Assembly (NCBI GenBank): GCA_031655335.1
Contig: CP134226.1
Location: 1,240,001-1,304,000 of the forward strand
DNA from: Thalassospiraceae bacterium LMO-SO8
GTDB lineage: Bacteria > Pseudomonadota > Alphaproteobacteria > Rhodospirillales > Casp-alpha2
Reading direction: 5' to 3'
Length of the DNA: 64,000 bases
Made by a program: the position numbers and the translations under genes. Positions 33,630-40,289 of the stretch are shown here, one piece after another (the first letter of the stretch is position 1; every line of letters starts with the position of its first letter). The notes beneath the pieces are model-generated. The model had not been told where the DNA came from. It saw only the letters and a program-made list of their open reading frames with translations, and did not search any database.

Positions 33630-35237
33630 TCAGGCGGCGGCGCGGATGGCGGCCGCCTTCACACTGTCGCCGACATGGCTTTCGAACTGGCCGAAGTTGG
33701 CTTCGAACCGCTGGGTCAGGTCGCGCGCCTGGGCGTCGTAAGCCCCGGCGTTGGCCCAGGTGTTCTTGGGGTTGAGCACGTCCGTCGGCACGTTCGGGCA
33801 GGCGTTGGGCACCAGCACCCCGAAATTGGGATCGGGGGTGAAGCCGGCGGCGTCGAGCTTGCCGTCGAGCGCCGCGTGCAGCATGGCCCGGGTATAGGCG
33901 ATCTTCATGCGTTCGCCCTCGCCGTAGCCGCCGCCGGACCAGCCGGTGTTGACCAGCCAGCATTTGGCGTTGTGCTTGGCCATCTTTTCGCCCAGCAGCT
34001 TGGCGTAGACCGTGGGATGGCGCGGCATGAACGGTGCGCCGAAGCAGGTCGAGAACGTCGCCTGCGGCTCCTTCAGGCCCCGTTCGGTCCCGGCGACCTT
34101 GGCCGTATAGCCGCTGAGGAAGTGGTACATGGCCTGATCCGGGGTCAGCTGACTGATCGGCGGCAGCACGCCGAAGGCGTCGCAGGTCAGCATCACGATG
34201 TCCTTGGGCTGGCCGCCGCAGCCGCTGGCCGAGGCGTTGTGGACCTTGGAGATGTCGTAGCTGACGCGGCCGTTCTCGGTCAGGGACGGATCGAAGAAAT
34301 CGAGCCCGCCCGTGGCCGGGTCCATCACCACGTTCTCGATGATCGAACCGAAGGTGTGGCAGAGATCGAAGATTTCCGGCTCGGCCTCGTGGGTCAGGTT
34401 GATGGTCTTGGCGTAGCAGCCGCCTTCGAAGTTGAAGACCCCGACATCGCCCCAGCCGTGTTCGTCGTCGCCGATCAGCGTGCGCGAGGAATCCGCCGAC
34501 AGGGTCGTCTTGCCGGTGCCCGACAGGCCGAAGAAGATGGCCGTGGCGCCGTCGGCGCCCTGGTTGGCCGAGCAATGCATGGGCAGCACGTCGCGGGCCG
34601 GCATCAGGAAGTTCATGATCGAGAAGATCGACTTCTTGATCTCGCCGGCATAGGCCGATCCGCCGATGATGATCATGCGCCGTGACAGGTGCACGACGAT
34701 GAAGGTGCCCGAGGTGGTGCCGTCATGTGCCGGGTCGGCGGTCAGCGACGGCGCCTGGATGACGGTGAATTCCGGTTCGAAGGAGGCCAGGTCATCGCGC
34801 GGCGGCTGAATGAACATGTTGCGCGCGAACAGGTTGTGCCAGGCTTCCTCGGTCACCACCCGCACCTTCAGGCGGTAATCGGGATGGGCCCCGGCGTAGC
34901 AGTCCTGCACGAAGGCGTCCTTGCCCTGGTAATGCTTCTGCATCTTGTCCAGCAGGCCGTTGAAATGAGCCTCGGACATGGGGCGGTTGACCTTGCCCCA
35001 CCAGATCTCACCCTTGGTCGCGTCTTCCTCGACGATGAAGCGGTCGTTGGGCGAACGGCCCGTGTGCTGGCCTGTTTCGGTGACGATGGCGCCGCCGGCC
35101 GAAATCCGGCCTTCGCCGCGGCGGACCGCCTCTTCGAACAGATGATGAGCGTCGAGGTTCCAAAAGGCCCGCTTGACCCCCGCCAATCCGTGGTTGTCCA
35201 ATCCGAAGCTGGAAATGAAGTGTCCTGCGTTCTCCAC
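33630..35237 (-). CDS. pckA: Phosphoenolpyruvate carboxykinase (ATP)
   Basis: This 535-residue ATP-type enzyme converts oxaloacetate to PEP for gluconeogenesis. Motifs are GRSPNDRFIV, the P-loop GLSGTGKTTLS at about 237-247, and GWGDVGVFNFEGGCYAK, which binds metal and nucleotide. The start is taken as GTG at 35237 (VENAGHFISSFGLD) because AAGGAG is six bases upstream and the length then fits the family; the frame runs on to 35405. In many alphaproteobacteria pckA is directly divergent from chvI; here three genes lie between. Confidence 0.95.
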   Translation of the reverse strand: MENAGHFISSFGLDNHGLAGVKRAFWNLDAHHLFEEAVRRGEGRISAGGAIVTETGQHTGRSPNDRFIVEEDATKGEIWWGKVNRPMSEAHFNGLLDKMQKHYQGKDAFVQDCYAGAHPDYRLKVRVVTEEAWHNLFARNMFIQPPRDDLASFEPEFTVIQAPSLTADPAHDGTTSGTFIVVHLSRRMIIIGGSAYAGEIKKSIFSIMNFLMPARDVLPMHCSANQGADGATAIFFGLSGTGKTTLSADSSRTLIGDDEHGWGDVGVFNFEGGCYAKTINLTHEAEPEIFDLCHTFGSIIENVVMDPATGGLDFFDPSLTENGRVSYDISKVHNASASGCGGQPKDIVMLTCDAFGVLPPISQLTPDQAMYHFLSGYTAKVAGTERGLKEPQATFSTCFGAPFMPRHPTVYAKLLGEKMAKHNAKCWLVNTGWSGGGYGEGERMKIAYTRAMLHAALDGKLDAAGFTPDPNFGVLVPNACPNVPTDVLNPKNTWANAGAYDAQARDLTQRFEANFGQFESHVGDSVKAAAIRAAA

Positions 35238-35485
35238 AATAAACTCCTTGAGGATAAAGTCCGCGCCCACCGACCGCGGCGATGCGGCCCGTTGCCCGTT
35301 TCGTTGAATATGAAGGATGACCGCCGACAGCCCGCCCCCCGGCGGTCCATCACGCTCTGTGTCCCTGGTGTTTCCCTGCGCCCTGTTAATCAAGGTTTCC
35401 CGCAAAACGTAACCTTCCCGGCAGGACGGGGCAACATTCCTTTCACATTATCGCAGCCAAAATGTCGCCGAACCACCGGGCGGGG
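35238..35485. other. Intergenic region upstream of pckA
   Basis: This 248-bp gap precedes pckA. On the minus strand a GATAAT (35447-35452) is a good -10, with only a weak TGGTTC 17 bases upstream near the end of the HugZ-like gene. The part nearest the start has the pckA SD. No strong terminator or riboswitch was seen. Confidence 0.35.
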
Positions 35486-36226
35486 TCAGGCCCCGGCCCG
35501 CGCCTTCGCCGCGAGATCGACCAGGGCCCGGCGCAGGCCGCCCGCGTCGGCCGCCATGGCGTCGAATTCAAGGCGCGCTGGAACGTCGTTCCGCATCAGG
35601 TCCAGGCCCCAGGGATCGCAGGCGACGGCGCGCCAGCCCTGGCCCTTTCGCCGCAACAGCTTGTTGGCGTAAAGGTCGAGCGCCGCCCCGTGATCGCCGT
35701 TCATGTGATCGATGACGCCCGCTTCCGCCTGGGCGACGGCGCGCACGGCGGCCGCGGGCGGCGCGATCTCGTCGCCCTTCAGCCATTGCGCGCGGGCGAA
35801 GCCGCCGACCAGATGCACCCGGTCGATGTCCATGCGGTAGAATCCGAAGTCGCCGAAATCGGCATAGCGCGCCGCCCCCGGATGGCGGGCCAAAAACCGC
35901 GCGCGGTGGCGCTTCGACGTGGTCGGGGCGACCGTGCCGAGGACCGAGATGCGCGGCCCCTGCTGCGGGTTCTTCTTGCGCAGGGCGCGTTCGACCAGAA
36001 GCGACGCCTTTGGGTCTTTCGCGAGATTGCCCGTGTGATCGGACAGGCCCGAAAACAGAAATATGGGGGCGCCGTCCGTATCCGGCGCGTAGGTCACGAG
36101 CGAGCCGTAGGGCCAATGCGCCTTCCCCCGGAAGGTCGTGGACAAGACGCCCGCGCGCCCGCCCATCAGCAGACTGCGGATCTCGGCGATCAGGACATCG
36201 CGGGGAACGGAAGGGGGGCGGACCAT
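35486..36226 (-). CDS. HugZ-like FMN-binding split-barrel/DUF2470 protein
   Basis: This 246-residue protein has an N-terminal pyridoxamine-phosphate-oxidase-like split barrel (AGVLSTTFRGKAHWPYGSLV, FLFSGLSDHTGNLAKDPKASLL) and a C-terminal DUF2470-like part with GVIDHMNGDHGAALDLYA. Members such as HugZ bind or degrade heme in some species; that activity here is inferred only from family. The ATG at 36226 has AAGGAGG ten bases upstream and is preferred to 36283. Confidence 0.82.
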   Translation of the reverse strand: MVRPPSVPRDVLIAEIRSLLMGGRAGVLSTTFRGKAHWPYGSLVTYAPDTDGAPIFLFSGLSDHTGNLAKDPKASLLVERALRKKNPQQGPRISVLGTVAPTTSKRHRARFLARHPGAARYADFGDFGFYRMDIDRVHLVGGFARAQWLKGDEIAPPAAAVRAVAQAEAGVIDHMNGDHGAALDLYANKLLRRKGQGWRAVACDPWGLDLMRNDVPARLEFDAMAADAGGLRRALVDLAAKARAGA

Positions 36227-36332
36227 CGCGGCGGAACCTCCTTGAACGGCGGGCGGCGGAACCATCCCGCCGCCCGTGTTCAAGATTGCCCGAAGGCCGT
36301 GCGGTCAATCAATGACCGCGATCAATGCCGCC

Positions 36333-37079
36333 TCAGGTCAGGCGGAAACGCTGCGCCAGGGTTCCCGTGGCCCAGCCGAGAAAGGCCCAGAAGGCCGCCG
36401 CCGTGACCAGGGAGGCCGCGACGAAATGGCCCGCCAGTTCCGGCGGCACGGCGCCGCCGATGGCGTCCGGTTGGGGGGCCCCGACCAGATGGGGCAGAAT
36501 CAAAAGCGCGACGCCGCCGAAGGGCATCCAGCGGTCACGGCCCAGGAACATGAGGGCCAGACCCGCCACCGACGCGCCGGCCGCGAAGATCCACCATCCC
36601 TGGCGGGCGACCAGCTCGGCGGCCATGGAGCCCGGCACCTCGGGCGGCAAACCCAAGGACGGGGCCAGCGACACCGCCGCGAACCCGGCGACACCCCACA
36701 TCACGCCCTGCCGCCCATCGACGGGCCGGCCGCGCATGAACATCGCCGCCGTCAGCACCAGGGCGAAGCCGATTCCCGTCAACACGTTGGCGAGGGTGGT
36801 GTACAGCGTGCGTTCCAACCCGTCTTCGGGCCCCCAGCCTTCCGCTTCGGCGCCCGGCGCGTGCTCTCCCGTGGCATGGGCCAGATAGAGCCGCCCGCCG
36901 GTCAGCCCGCGCGCCGTCAAATCCAACCGCGCATGACCGCCCAGGGAGGCCGCGGGTTTGTTTTCGAATTCCTCCGCATGGAGAATGATGGGGGTGGTCG
37001 TGAAGTGCTGCACCACGGAAATGACGAGCCCAGCCGCCAGCCCGGCCAGCAGCGCGACCGTAAAGATACGTCCGATCAT
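36333..37079 (-). CDS. cbtA: CbtA-type putative cobalt transporter subunit
   Basis: This 248-residue membrane protein of the CbtA family is a predicted cobalt transporter. It has the N-terminal helix FTVALLAGLAAGLVISVVQ followed by HFTTTPIILHAEEFE. Further hydrophobic stretches include LTGIGFALVLTAAMFM, GVMWGVAGFAAVSLAPSLGLPPEVPG and a C-terminal SLVTAAAFWAFLGWATG. It follows cbtB by ten bases and shares its cobalamin riboswitch leader, which fits control of cobalt uptake by coenzyme B12. Confidence 0.88.
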   Translation of the reverse strand: MIGRIFTVALLAGLAAGLVISVVQHFTTTPIILHAEEFENKPAASLGGHARLDLTARGLTGGRLYLAHATGEHAPGAEAEGWGPEDGLERTLYTTLANVLTGIGFALVLTAAMFMRGRPVDGRQGVMWGVAGFAAVSLAPSLGLPPEVPGSMAAELVARQGWWIFAAGASVAGLALMFLGRDRWMPFGGVALLILPHLVGAPQPDAIGGAVPPELAGHFVAASLVTAAAFWAFLGWATGTLAQRFRLT

Positions 37080-37089
37080 GGCGCCCTCC

Positions 37090-37266
37090 TTAGTGGCAGG
37101 GGAAGGCGAAGGCGTGCCGGGTATCGTGGGCAGCGTTGTGAATGGCCTCCGGATGGGCGAAGCCCGTGCCGAACAGCAGGAAAACCCCGAACAGAAGAGC
37201 GAGGGCCGCGGGCATCGCCCGTTCGGCGGCGGTCGTCGTGACGATCCGGTTGGTCTGAGTGGTCAT
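37090..37266 (-). CDS. cbtB: CbtB-type small cobalt transporter subunit
   Basis: This 58-residue protein has one membrane helix (PAALALLFGVFLLFGTGFA) followed by a His-rich tail, HPEAIHNAAHDTRHAFAFPCH, as expected for CbtB, where the histidines may bind metal. The first residues are MTTQTNRIVTTT. GGAGG lies nine bases before the ATG and is partly covered by a possible hairpin. It is the first gene after a cobalamin riboswitch and is followed by cbtA. Confidence 0.9.
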   Translation of the reverse strand: MTTQTNRIVTTTAAERAMPAALALLFGVFLLFGTGFAHPEAIHNAAHDTRHAFAFPCH

Positions 37267-37269
37267 TGC

Positions 37270-37310
37270 GTGAAACCTCCGATTTCAAAAACGTCGCGTT
37301 AAGGTTTCAC
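37270..37310 (-). promoter_or_regulatory. Possible Shine-Dalgarno-sequestering hairpin of cbtB
   Basis: On the minus strand GTGAAACCT (37310-37302) and AGGTTTCAC (37278-37270) are exact complements separated by 23 bases. The second arm contains the AGG of the SD GGAGG (37280-37276) and ends three bases before the ATG. A small GGCGG/CCGCC hairpin (37315-37328) lies just upstream. This could be the expression platform of the riboswitch. Confidence 0.5.
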
Positions 37311-37365
37311 CGCTGGCGGCTTTCCGCCCCTACAGGACCCCCGTCCCTTGGGTATCGCGGTGACA

Positions 37366-37598
37366 GGCGGCAGGTCTCCTGGCTTGTGGGTCGTCGTACC
37401 GTCCGGCCTTCCCGGGCACCCCATCCTTCCTTGCGGAAGAATCCGGCGTCCAGTGGCGCGACGGTGAACGGTACTCGCCACTCACAGTTGCGGGGGCAGC
37501 CACGGCGCGGGAGCCCCCGAATTGGGTCTGCTCCGTTCCGTGTTCCCTCTTAGCCCCGGGGCCTCATGCCCTTGATCGGGGAACCACCTGGCGCGGAC
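37366..37598 (-). promoter_or_regulatory. Cobalamin (AdoCbl-type) riboswitch
   Basis: Read on the minus strand this leader contains the B12 box AGCCAGGAGACCTGCC (37384-37369) near its 3' end. Upstream are the other conserved blocks of the class: TAAGAGGGAA, the GCCCCCGCAACTGTGAG region and a paired TTCCGCAAGGAA arm. The order matches the known cobalamin riboswitch. It sits about 100 bases before cbtB. The outer ends are approximate. Confidence 0.95.
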
Positions 37599-37831
37599 TA
37601 TAAGGAACAAGGGCGGCGGCGGTCAACGGATTGCGACCATCCCGCCGCCGGTTTTGCCTTATTTCCCCCTTGGGATTGGTCAAAGACGCCCCATTCGCGT
37701 TAAAATTCTGCCATAAAGGCGGACGAGAGTGGCCTTCCGCCGGAGGGGCCTTATGGCAAATCCGGCGTATCGTCATTCGCCGCCCGGCGGGCCCACCGAT
37801 GCCCCCGCCGGCGACCCGCAAGGAGATTTCC
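37599..37831 (+). promoter_or_regulatory. chvI upstream region
   Basis: This 233-bp stretch lies between the riboswitch (leftward) and chvI (rightward). TAAAAT (37701-37706) could be a -10 for chvI, with TTGGTC (37676-37681) 19 bases before it; this is a weak call. A GC-rich inverted repeat lies at about 37611-37660. AAGGAG precedes the chvI ATG. Confidence 0.3.
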
Positions 37832-38524
37832 ATGCCGAGTTCCATCGCCCTGGTCGACGACGATCAAAACATTCTGACCTCCGTGTCCATGGCGCTGGAG
37901 GCCGAGGGCTACAACGTCACCACCTATTCCGACGGGGCCGAGGCCCTGGAAGGCCTGGGCCGCGCCCCCGTGGACCTGGCCGTGCTCGATATCAAGATGC
38001 CGCGCATGGACGGGATGGAGCTGTTGTCCCGCATCCGCGAGCGCGACAATCTGCCGGTGATCTTCCTGACCTCGAAGGACGACGAGGTCGACGAGGTCGT
38101 GGGGCTCCGCATGGGGGCCGACGACTACATCAAGAAGCCGTTTTCCCAGCGCCTGTTGATCGAGCGCATCCGCGCCGTGCTGCGCCGCCGCGAATTGGAG
38201 GGCAAGGAGCCCGATTCCAAGGATGTCGTGCGCCGGGGCGAGTTGGTGCTCGACCCAGGCCGGCATCTCTGCACCTGGCAAGGCAAGGAGGTGAACCTGA
38301 CGGTCACCGAATTCCTGATCGTCGAGGCCCTGGCCCGCCGCCCCGGCCACGTGAAAAACCGCGACCAGTTGATTGACGCCGCCTACGGCGAGAATATCTA
38401 TGTCGATGACCGGACGATCGACAGCCACATCAAGCGGCTGCGCCGCAAGTTCCGGGCCGTGGACAATGACTTTTCGGAGATCGAAACGCTGTACGGCATC
38501 GGCTACCGCTACAAGGCGGAATAG
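37832..38524 (+). CDS. chvI: Response regulator ChvI (OmpR family)
   Basis: This 230-residue regulator has a receiver domain with acidic residues Asp9/Asp10, phosphoacceptor Asp53 ([11 protein letters not shown]) and Lys102 (DDYIKKPF). A winged-helix DNA-binding domain follows ([28 protein letters not shown]). It closely resembles ChvI, which in rhizobia controls envelope, acid and exopolysaccharide responses. AAGGAG is eight bases before the ATG. The kinase gene chvG follows after 58 bases. Confidence 0.94.
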
Positions 38525-38582
38525 CTTGCACATCGCGCCGGTCGCCGCGTTTGCCGCCCTGTTCCGGGGCTTAAGGGGGCCC

Positions 38583-40289
38583 ATGGCCAAGGACGGAACC
38601 TATCCCGAGGACGGCCCGGCCGCGCCGAAAACCCCGGCGGGCGGCAAGACGTCCGCCGCGCCGGTGGGAGAGACCCCGCGCGGCGGCGAGCGTCAGCGCA
38701 AGCGGCGCCTGATTTCGCCCATTTCCGTTCATATCCTGGCCATCAACATGCTGGCCCTGTCGATCCTGGTCGCCGGTGTGCTGTACCTGGGCGACTATCG
38801 GCAAAGCCTGATCCGCGCCGAACTGTCGGCCTTGCGCACCCAGGCGCAACTGTTCGCCGTGGCCCTGGCCGAAGGGGCCATGCACCTGGACCAGTCGTCG
38901 GAACAGCAGGTCGCCACCAACATCCGCAACCAGATGCTGCGCCGGCTGGTCGAGGCCACGGGCACGCGCGCGCGCCTGTTCAACCGGGCCGGCGAACTGG
39001 CCGCCGACTCGCGCTATTTCGGCAAGACCCGCCAGGCGGTGGAGGTCGAACAGCTGCCGCCGCCGGGCACCGACGAGGGCGGCACGGCCGACGCCGTGTT
39101 CGACATCTACGACCGCCTCACCCGTTGGCTGCCGGGAACCCTGCCGCTCAGCCATTACCGGGAAATCCCGGAGCCCTCGGCCGCCGATTATCCCGAGGTC
39201 ATGTCCGCTCTCATGGGCGACGACAGCAGGATCGTGCGCGCCTATTCCCAGGACAGCATGATGCTGTCCGTCGCCGTGCCCGTGCAGCGCTACAAGCGCA
39301 TCCTGGGTGCCTTGATGCTGACCAAGCCGTCGGCCAGCATCGACAACGCGCTTCTGGACGTGCGCCTGGATATCCTGAAGATCTTCGGCGTCGCCATCGC
39401 CATCACCACGTTCCTGTCGATCTATCTGGCGCGCACCATCGCGCGGCCCGTGAAGCGTCTGGCCGCCGCCGCCGACCGCGTGCGCCGCGACCACAGCCGC
39501 GAAGAGGAAATCCCCGATTTCACCACCCGCAACGACGAAATCGGCGACCTGTCCCATGCGCTGCGCGGCATGACGGCAGCGCTCTGGACCCGCATGGACG
39601 CGATCGAGCGGTTCGCCGCCGACGTCGCACACGAGATCAAGAACCCCCTGACCAGCCTGCGCAGCGCGGTCGAGACCGCGGCCCGGATCAAGGACGTGGA
39701 CCAGCAACGCAAGCTGATGTCGATCATCCAGGACGACGTCGGCCGCCTGGACCGCCTGATTTCCGACATTTCCGACGCGTCCCGCCTGGATGCGGAACTG
39801 TCGCGCTCGCACCGCGAGCCGGTCGATCTGGCCGGCATGCTGTCGACCCTGGCCGATGTCCATGCGACGACGGCGGCGGACGGCGGGCCGAAACTGGTGT
39901 TGGAGATCATGGACGGCGAGAAACTGTCGGTGCAGGGCATGGAAGGCCGCCTGGTCCAGGTGTTCCGCAACCTGATCGCCAATGCCGTGACCTTCAGCCC
40001 GCCGGGCGGCGCCATCCGCATCACCGCGTCGCGCGACCGCAAGGCGGCGGTCGTCACCATCGACGACGAAGGTCCCGGCATCCCTCCCGGCAAGGAAGAG
40101 GCGATCTTTCAGCGCTTCTATACGGAACGCCCGCAGGGCGAGAAATTCGGCACCCATTCCGGTCTGGGGCTGTCGATCTCGCAGCAGATCGTCGACGCCC
40201 ACGACGGCACCATCCGCGCCTCCAACCGCCTGGGCGCCGACGGTAAAATCCTCGGCGCCCGGTTCACGGTCACCCTGCCGGCGGCCTAG
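38583..40289 (+). CDS. chvG: Sensor histidine kinase ChvG (ExoS-like)
   Basis: This 568-residue inner-membrane kinase has a membrane helix at about 47-70, a periplasmic sensor domain to about 265, a second helix (IFGVAIAITTFLSIYLA), a HAMP linker, and a HisKA domain with the phospho-site His350 in DVAHEIKNPLTSLRSAVE. The ATPase domain has NLIANAVTFSPPGG, DDEGPGIPPG and SGLGLSISQQIV. The start at 38583 leaves a long Pro/Gly-rich cytoplasmic N-terminus; a TTG at 38524 is possible. Its stop overlaps that of the opposite methyltransferase gene. Confidence 0.93.
   Translation: MAKDGTYPEDGPAAPKTPAGGKTSAAPVGETPRGGERQRKRRLISPISVHILAINMLALSILVAGVLYLGDYRQSLIRAELSALRTQAQLFAVALAEGAMHLDQSSEQQVATNIRNQMLRRLVEATGTRARLFNRAGELAADSRYFGKTRQAVEVEQLPPPGTDEGGTADAVFDIYDRLTRWLPGTLPLSHYREIPEPSAADYPEVMSALMGDDSRIVRAYSQDSMMLSVAVPVQRYKRILGALMLTKPSASIDNALLDVRLDILKIFGVAIAITTFLSIYLARTIARPVKRLAAAADRVRRDHSREEEIPDFTTRNDEIGDLSHALRGMTAALWTRMDAIERFAADVAHEIKNPLTSLRSAVETAARIKDVDQQRKLMSIIQDDVGRLDRLISDISDASRLDAELSRSHREPVDLAGMLSTLADVHATTAADGGPKLVLEIMDGEKLSVQGMEGRLVQVFRNLIANAVTFSPPGGAIRITASRDRKAAVVTIDDEGPGIPPGKEEAIFQRFYTERPQGEKFGTHSGLGLSISQQIVDAHDGTIRASNRLGADGKILGARFTVTLPAA

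Follow-up and report, generated by a model that had tools for sequence, protein, structure and literature searches.

The window analysed here, a 64,000-nucleotide stretch of DNA from Thalassospiraceae bacterium LMO-SO8, carries on its minus strand, in this order, a promoter match, a cobalamin riboswitch aptamer, a platform of about 85 nt, cbtB and cbtA (Table 1). The sequence-only reading of this DNA had placed a cobalamin riboswitch with a complete B12 box on this strand, and both are confirmed: RF00174 matches at full length and far above its gathering score of 31.5 bits, the box reads AGCCAGGAGACCTGCC, and a whole-genome search found no second match in the 3.98-Mb genome. Because the -10 box TATAGT lies at 37602-37597, the transcript likely starts near 37590, where the 5' strand of P1 begins; similar promoter hexamers occur in several relatives' leaders, as seen by eye and uncounted. 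An extension of P1 as the switch (CGCG 5' of P1 with CGCG 3' of P1) was considered and dropped, since the promoter match sets the start at about 37590, inside P1, and the upstream CGCG is probably untranscribed. The RF00174 match stops short of the platform, so standard annotation would miss the platform.

The genes cbtBA are proposed to serve in cobalt uptake, and both match family profiles, cbtB above the cut-offs (Table 1). The literature describes cbtAB as predicted cobalt transporters (PMC2667541), and the NCBIfam name of the CbtB profile itself says "proposed" (cobalt transporter subunit). The cbtB frame, which opens with the ATG at 37266, had been thought short enough to be missed by gene finders; this remark fails for profile-based annotation, given that the Pfam PF09489 and TIGR02459 profiles both find it. 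CobN is encoded in the same genome, so the host plausibly makes B12 and needs cobalt.

Several neighbors were identified by family matches or profile searches. The riboswitch and cbtBA are flanked on one side by a gene for an ATP-type PEP carboxykinase (33630-35405, minus strand) and on the other by genes for an OmpR-type response regulator (37826-38524, plus strand) and a Stimulus_sens_1 sensor kinase (38571-40289, plus strand), a set that we take to resemble the pckA-chvI-chvG arrangement of other alphaproteobacteria. Just 3' of cbtA, at 35486-36283 on the minus strand, lies a gene with CREG/PNPOx and DUF2470 domains, presumably the combination found in HugZ-type heme-related proteins; this gene may be on the cbtBA transcript. 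The window also contains a bacterial small SRP RNA (RF00169, 8438-8529, minus strand, 61.1 bits).

Table 1. Features of the riboswitch and cbtBA in the window, in the direction of transcription
Feature	Position	Strand	Basis or remarks
Sigma-70-type promoter match	37597..37626	-	TTGACC 37626-37621, 18-nt spacer, TATAGT 37602-37597; consensus scan 10/12
Cobalamin (AdoCbl) riboswitch aptamer, RF00174	37352..37603	-	full-length match, 98.9 bits, E 1.7e-23
P1 5' strand CAGGTGG	37584..37590	-	pairs with CCGCCTG 37370-37364
L5 GCCCCCG	37491..37497	-	Rfam alignment; complementary to L13
B12 box AGCCAGGAGACCTGCC	37369..37384	-	sequence and RF00174 alignment
P1 3' strand CCGCCTG	37364..37370	-	pairs with CAGGTGG
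P-alpha 5' strand TCACCGC (anti-anti-SD)	37357..37363	-	directly 3' of P1; seven pairs with GCGGTGA; swap tests, pair counts
P13 hairpin GGAC-GGGG-GTCC	37335..37346	-	sequence, covariation
L13 CGGGGG	37338..37343	-	complements L5 CCCCCG, six pairs
Spacer hairpin hp2	37315..37328	-	between P13 and P-alpha 3' strand; fold
P-alpha 3' strand GCGGTGA (switch strand)	37307..37313	-	overlaps 5' arm of SD hairpin
SD hairpin 5' arm (anti-SD) GTGAAACCT	37302..37310	-	exact complement of AGGTTTCAC
Shine-Dalgarno (SD) GGAGG	37276..37280	-	nine bases from ATG
SD hairpin 3' arm AGGTTTCAC	37270..37278	-	exact complement of GTGAAACCT
cbtB	37090..37266	-	58 aa; PF09489 E 1.7e-19, 70.1 bits (cut-off 27); TIGR02459 74.6 (cut-off 64.4)
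cbtA	36333..37079	-	248 aa; PF09490, TIGR02458

The hairpin over the cbtB ribosome site

The exactly complementary arms that had been noticed from the letters are indeed there: GTGAAACCT and AGGTTTCAC are separated by a loop of 23 bases, and the second arm covers the final three bases of the SD GGAGG and stops three bases short of the ATG. Could this be a chance inverted repeat? When dinucleotides were shuffled around a fixed SD, helices this long (nine perfect pairs or longer) did arise over it, in 30 of 5,000 shuffles of a 60-nt region and in 19 of 5,000 of a 90-nt region (about 0.5%). Against chance stand the identical arms with different loops found within the genus and the SD helices rebuilt in other genera, as outlined below, and we regard a chance origin as scarcely credible.

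Matches to CbtB occur in 40 of the 48 genomes of the family. A pattern search of the 800 nt preceding cbtB at 42 of its 43 places (the fragment G024:C70 was left out) found a B12 box in 36, and among the best 80 named cbtB relatives, 35 have a box within 600 nt upstream and at least 4 more have a variant box. Several platform types are present among the cbtB leaders, and the window's type is found in 18 (in genera g1, g2, g4, g7, and g8, window included). In g1, the window's own genus, both arms of the SD hairpin are identical in all five continuous leaders (window included) around three different loops: one is common to the window, G028, and G032, and the two others differ from it in sequence and length. 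Another member of the genus, G029, has an assembly that breaks at the SD hairpin, with the aptamer and cbtB at the ends of two contigs (L050, L162/L196). In other genera, different sequences rebuild a predicted SD hairpin. In g7 and most of g2, the SD ACGGAG lies opposite CCGTAGCGGT through variants of ACCGC(T/A)ACGG, g4 and g8 use arms of the form GTGAT.../...ATCAC, and in G007 the pairing is GGTGAAGATC with GATTTCACC.

To these 18 leaders of the window's type were added six from other families, whose start codons were chosen manually. In 23 of the resulting 24 leaders, the best helix that the anti-SD and SD zones can form lies over the SD, reaching no more than its edge in G007; in the remaining leader, G087, the helix flanks the SD. 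In G080, the SD is 14 nt from the hand-picked start codon, which is unusually far. When each leader's anti-SD zone was scored with its own SD zone and with those of other groups, the own partner was preferred (10 groups, p 0.0013; 0.019 and 0.008 with other choices of zone); five leaders (G007, G012, G013, G021, and G087) showed no such preference relative to the average foreign partner. The covariation proposed for the SD stem is therefore present across genera as co-evolution of the arms (swap p 0.0013 to 0.019), and inside the genus, the arms are invariant, so that strict covariation is uncountable there. In total, the shuffles, the overlap in 23 of 24 leaders, and the co-evolving arms uphold the idea that the hairpin sequesters the SD, and we infer that it does so in a ligand-dependent manner. 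As a separate observation, the sister genera g12 and g14 (L034, L036, L040, and others) have cbtB riboswitches with shorter platforms, and the g14 leaders, judged by eye, have a hairpin 3' of the aptamer without a G-run in its loop.

The position of the hairpin also bears on whether the riboswitch might instead act by transcription attenuation. There is precedent for that kind of control in a B. subtilis reporter study, in which 37 of the 38 functional riboswitches carry predicted terminators (PMC9600662). At this locus, however, the region from 36250 to 37800 holds no site resembling an intrinsic terminator, and the hairpin lies over the SD in nearly every leader compared; attenuation in place of translational control is thus highly improbable.

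The competing helix P-alpha

The platform also holds two elements that were absent from the sequence-only reading, namely, a P13/L13 kissing-loop hairpin and a competing helix, P-alpha. The L13/L5 kissing loop is predicted from the complementarity of the two loops, and all 18 leaders, the window's among them, match the pattern of a C-rich L5. P-alpha encloses both P13 and hp2. Because its 3' strand, GCGGTGA, is common to P-alpha and the SD hairpin, the two helices cannot both form fully.

In an alignment of the 18 leaders (A3), P-alpha and P13 taken jointly are paired in 96.0% of cells and score 0.268 for covariation; each of these values was reached in 0 of 500 shuffles. Eight cells are changed on both sides, versus 1.7 in shuffles. 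The case that A3 makes for P-alpha is nonetheless thin, because seven of these eight cells belong to P13 and only one to P-alpha, of whose seven pairs four are invariant. A single sequence shows one P-alpha pair altered on both strands, and in 5 of 18 leaders the outermost pair fails. It is the wider comparison across the order that carries P-alpha.

The covariance model R1, built on the platform, matched 41 of the 317 order genomes, representing 19 of 115 genera; one of these matches, G172, was set aside for lack of a B12 box. Searched against 385 genomes of the class, R1 returned the window and five marginal matches. Since R1 contains the P-alpha pairs, the search was repeated with a sequence-only model (R2), which gave 39 matches in 37 of the 317 order genomes. 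Thirty-six of the 39 were used as leaders; G082 and G218, which have no B12 box in the stretch, and G192, which has a box and a partial match, were left out. In these 36 leaders, the mean P-alpha duplex energy is -13.2 kcal/mol, versus -6.1, -6.3, and -8.2 kcal/mol in three decoy zones, and the swap test over 12 groups gives a p of 0.0019.

We then consider the order at large, where RF00174 is found in 111 of 120 genomes. The order sample consists of 63 leaders from outside the family, 23 among the loci listed and 40 chosen manually for breadth across families; rule-based scoring dropped 14 of them (no box found in 3, no P13 found in 11). In permutations at the family level, which assume exchangeable families and leave their relatedness unmodelled, the order sample and the R2 set together (85 leaders, 27 families) gave a result as good as that observed in 15 of 50,000 trials, and the order sample alone (49 leaders, 22 families) did so in 145 of 50,000. 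The rebuilt pairs include GUCACC/GGUGAC, GUCGCC/GGCGAC, and AUCACC/GGUGAU. Leader by leader, the signal is weak: a shuffle test with long zones and little power gave a p below 0.05 in 6 of 46 scorable order leaders and below 0.01 in none. In g1 and most of g2, the leader's own P-alpha partner scored no better than those of other groups, in a scoring that misplaced the 3' zone in G054, G052, G053, and G151. Taken together, the sequence comparisons support a P-alpha that is conserved and co-varies across the order.

The platform is not always followed by cbtB. By eye, the matches in two other families (f24: G240, G243, and G190; f2: G054) precede long open reading frames that look like TonB-dependent, BtuB-type receptors, and in two genomes of g2 (G008 and G009; L183 and L184), a second copy of the platform precedes a secreted, porin-like open reading frame instead of cbtB. 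We speculate, tentatively and with more doubt than confidence, that P-alpha around P13 and hp2 and a rebuilt SD hairpin form an order-wide module ahead of cbtB and BtuB-like receptors, in which P-alpha would give a kinetic ON state by capturing the shared strand before transcription reaches the SD, and the sequences of the SD stem would be freely swapped with the shared strand kept.

Computed folds and the proposed switch

How do the two helices fare in computed folds? Unconstrained and ligand free, the leader from 37590 folds with eight of the nine pairs of the SD hairpin at a probability of at least 0.96 and with P-alpha at 0.0. The sequence-only reading had named, as a possible refutation, a more stable fold that leaves the SD open in both states; the computed equilibrium fold instead closes it. 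The platform from 37368, folded freely, has an ensemble energy of -44.9 kcal/mol (SD hairpin 0.94, P-alpha 0.0), a value that uses P1 3'-strand bases that the aptamer would hold. The energy is -40.1 kcal/mol with P13 forced (SD hairpin 0.89, P-alpha 0.15), -38.4 kcal/mol with P-alpha forced, and -38.2 kcal/mol with the P-alpha 5' strand blocked. When the platform is started just after P1, the difference between P-alpha forced and blocked is -0.3 kcal/mol, and P-alpha reaches 0.08 in the free fold. Forcing P-alpha opens the first three SD bases to 0.73, 0.58, and 0.59, versus 0.44, 0.04, and 0.01, and the last two stay closed. Two-state folding of the 24 leaders is mixed: with a tail of 15, the SD is more open with P-alpha in 10 leaders and less open in 6, and other tails give 11 versus 6 and 8 versus 7.

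An equilibrium fold with the SD hairpin and no P-alpha is also what would be seen if the hairpin were ligand independent and merely kept the basal translation of cbtB low, with B12 acting elsewhere, for example, on transcript level. In keeping with such a role, a review describes coenzyme B12 as suppressing the transcription of cbtBA in Pseudomonas denitrificans (PMC8123684). A permanently closed SD, however, has no need for a conserved, co-varying P-alpha, and P-alpha is what forms in the computed fold of an RNA truncated at 37285, short of the SD. We therefore consider a ligand-independent hairpin unlikely. Both helices are supported by sequence and comparison; the energies alone give no ligand-free ON state at equilibrium, and because the computed equilibrium without ligand favors the SD hairpin, an ON state needs kinetics or factors outside the model.

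These observations are consistent with a proposed mechanism, which we hold to be probable, in which a translational B12 riboswitch represses cbtBA, with the ON state set by P-alpha and the OFF state set by the SD hairpin. In the absence of B12, the nascent RNA would make P-alpha before the SD is transcribed; P-alpha would hold the shared strand, the SD would be free, and cbtB could be translated at first. Upon binding of AdoCbl, L13 would dock on L5 and P-alpha would be disfavored, and with P-alpha lost, the SD hairpin would shut the ribosome site of cbtB. Repression is the expected sign of the ligand effect because cbtBA is suppressed in P. denitrificans, the btuB kissing loop favors the RBS hairpin, and CobN is encoded here.

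Could the sign be the opposite, such that docking stabilizes P13 and the surrounding P-alpha, the SD opens, and B12 activates cbtB? P-alpha does enclose P13, the two appear together in a constrained fold, and an activating corrinoid riboswitch has been published (PMC10653944). With P13 forced, the SD hairpin is nevertheless still preferred over P-alpha; the kissing loop of E. coli btuB, as described in the same paper, promotes the RBS hairpin (PMC10653944); B12 represses cbtBA in P. denitrificans, according to the review (PMC8123684); and it would make little physiological sense for an excess of B12 to switch on cobalt uptake. Activation is in our estimation very unlikely.

Comparison with known cobalamin riboswitches

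The locus contributes a cobalt-transport operon whose two-helix switch is complete and open to testing. The comparisons further suggest covariation, across an order of alphaproteobacteria, of an enclosing helix similar to the one computed for E. coli btuB. Such order-wide covariation offers a comparative way to study how B12 riboswitches relay ligand binding to the SD. Among the literature matches listed, as judged by titles and abstract openings, no title dealt with this order's platform.

The closest likeness drawn here is to E. coli btuB, for which the published description has the SD freed by a helix between the anti-SD and an anti-anti-SD, P13 in a pseudoknot, and P14 at the SD (PMC11162775). 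The window resembles this arrangement in its P13 kissing hairpin, its separate SD stem (P14 in btuB), and its predicted ON-state anti-SD/anti-anti-SD helix. In the leader of btuB from E. coli K-12, GUCGCA/UGCGGC encloses the P13 region, overlaps the 5' arm of the SD stem, and is present in the computed platform fold; that this helix is the btuB counterpart of P-alpha is our own, computed assignment. Unlike btuB, the window has hp2 inside the enclosing helix, cbtB as its gene, and other arm sequences.

Two further systems share parts of this design. Pseudomonas denitrificans RS3, ahead of cbtBA-cobEM, is likewise a B12 riboswitch before cbtBA and is described as having an antisequestor and an RBS hairpin (PMC8123684), a likeness by description. 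Coenzyme B12 suppresses cbtBA 43-fold in that organism, an effect that the review judges to be transcriptional (PMC8123684), unlike our reading of the window. The corrinoid riboswitch of Priestia megaterium metE similarly has a kissing loop between L5 and L13 and a competing alternative helix, as described in PMC10653944, but it ends in a transcription terminator, whereas the window has an SD hairpin. On present evidence, the window's platform works like, and belongs with, the translational cobalamin riboswitches; it represents a known type of switch in well-preserved form, to which the competing helix and the covariation across the order are added.
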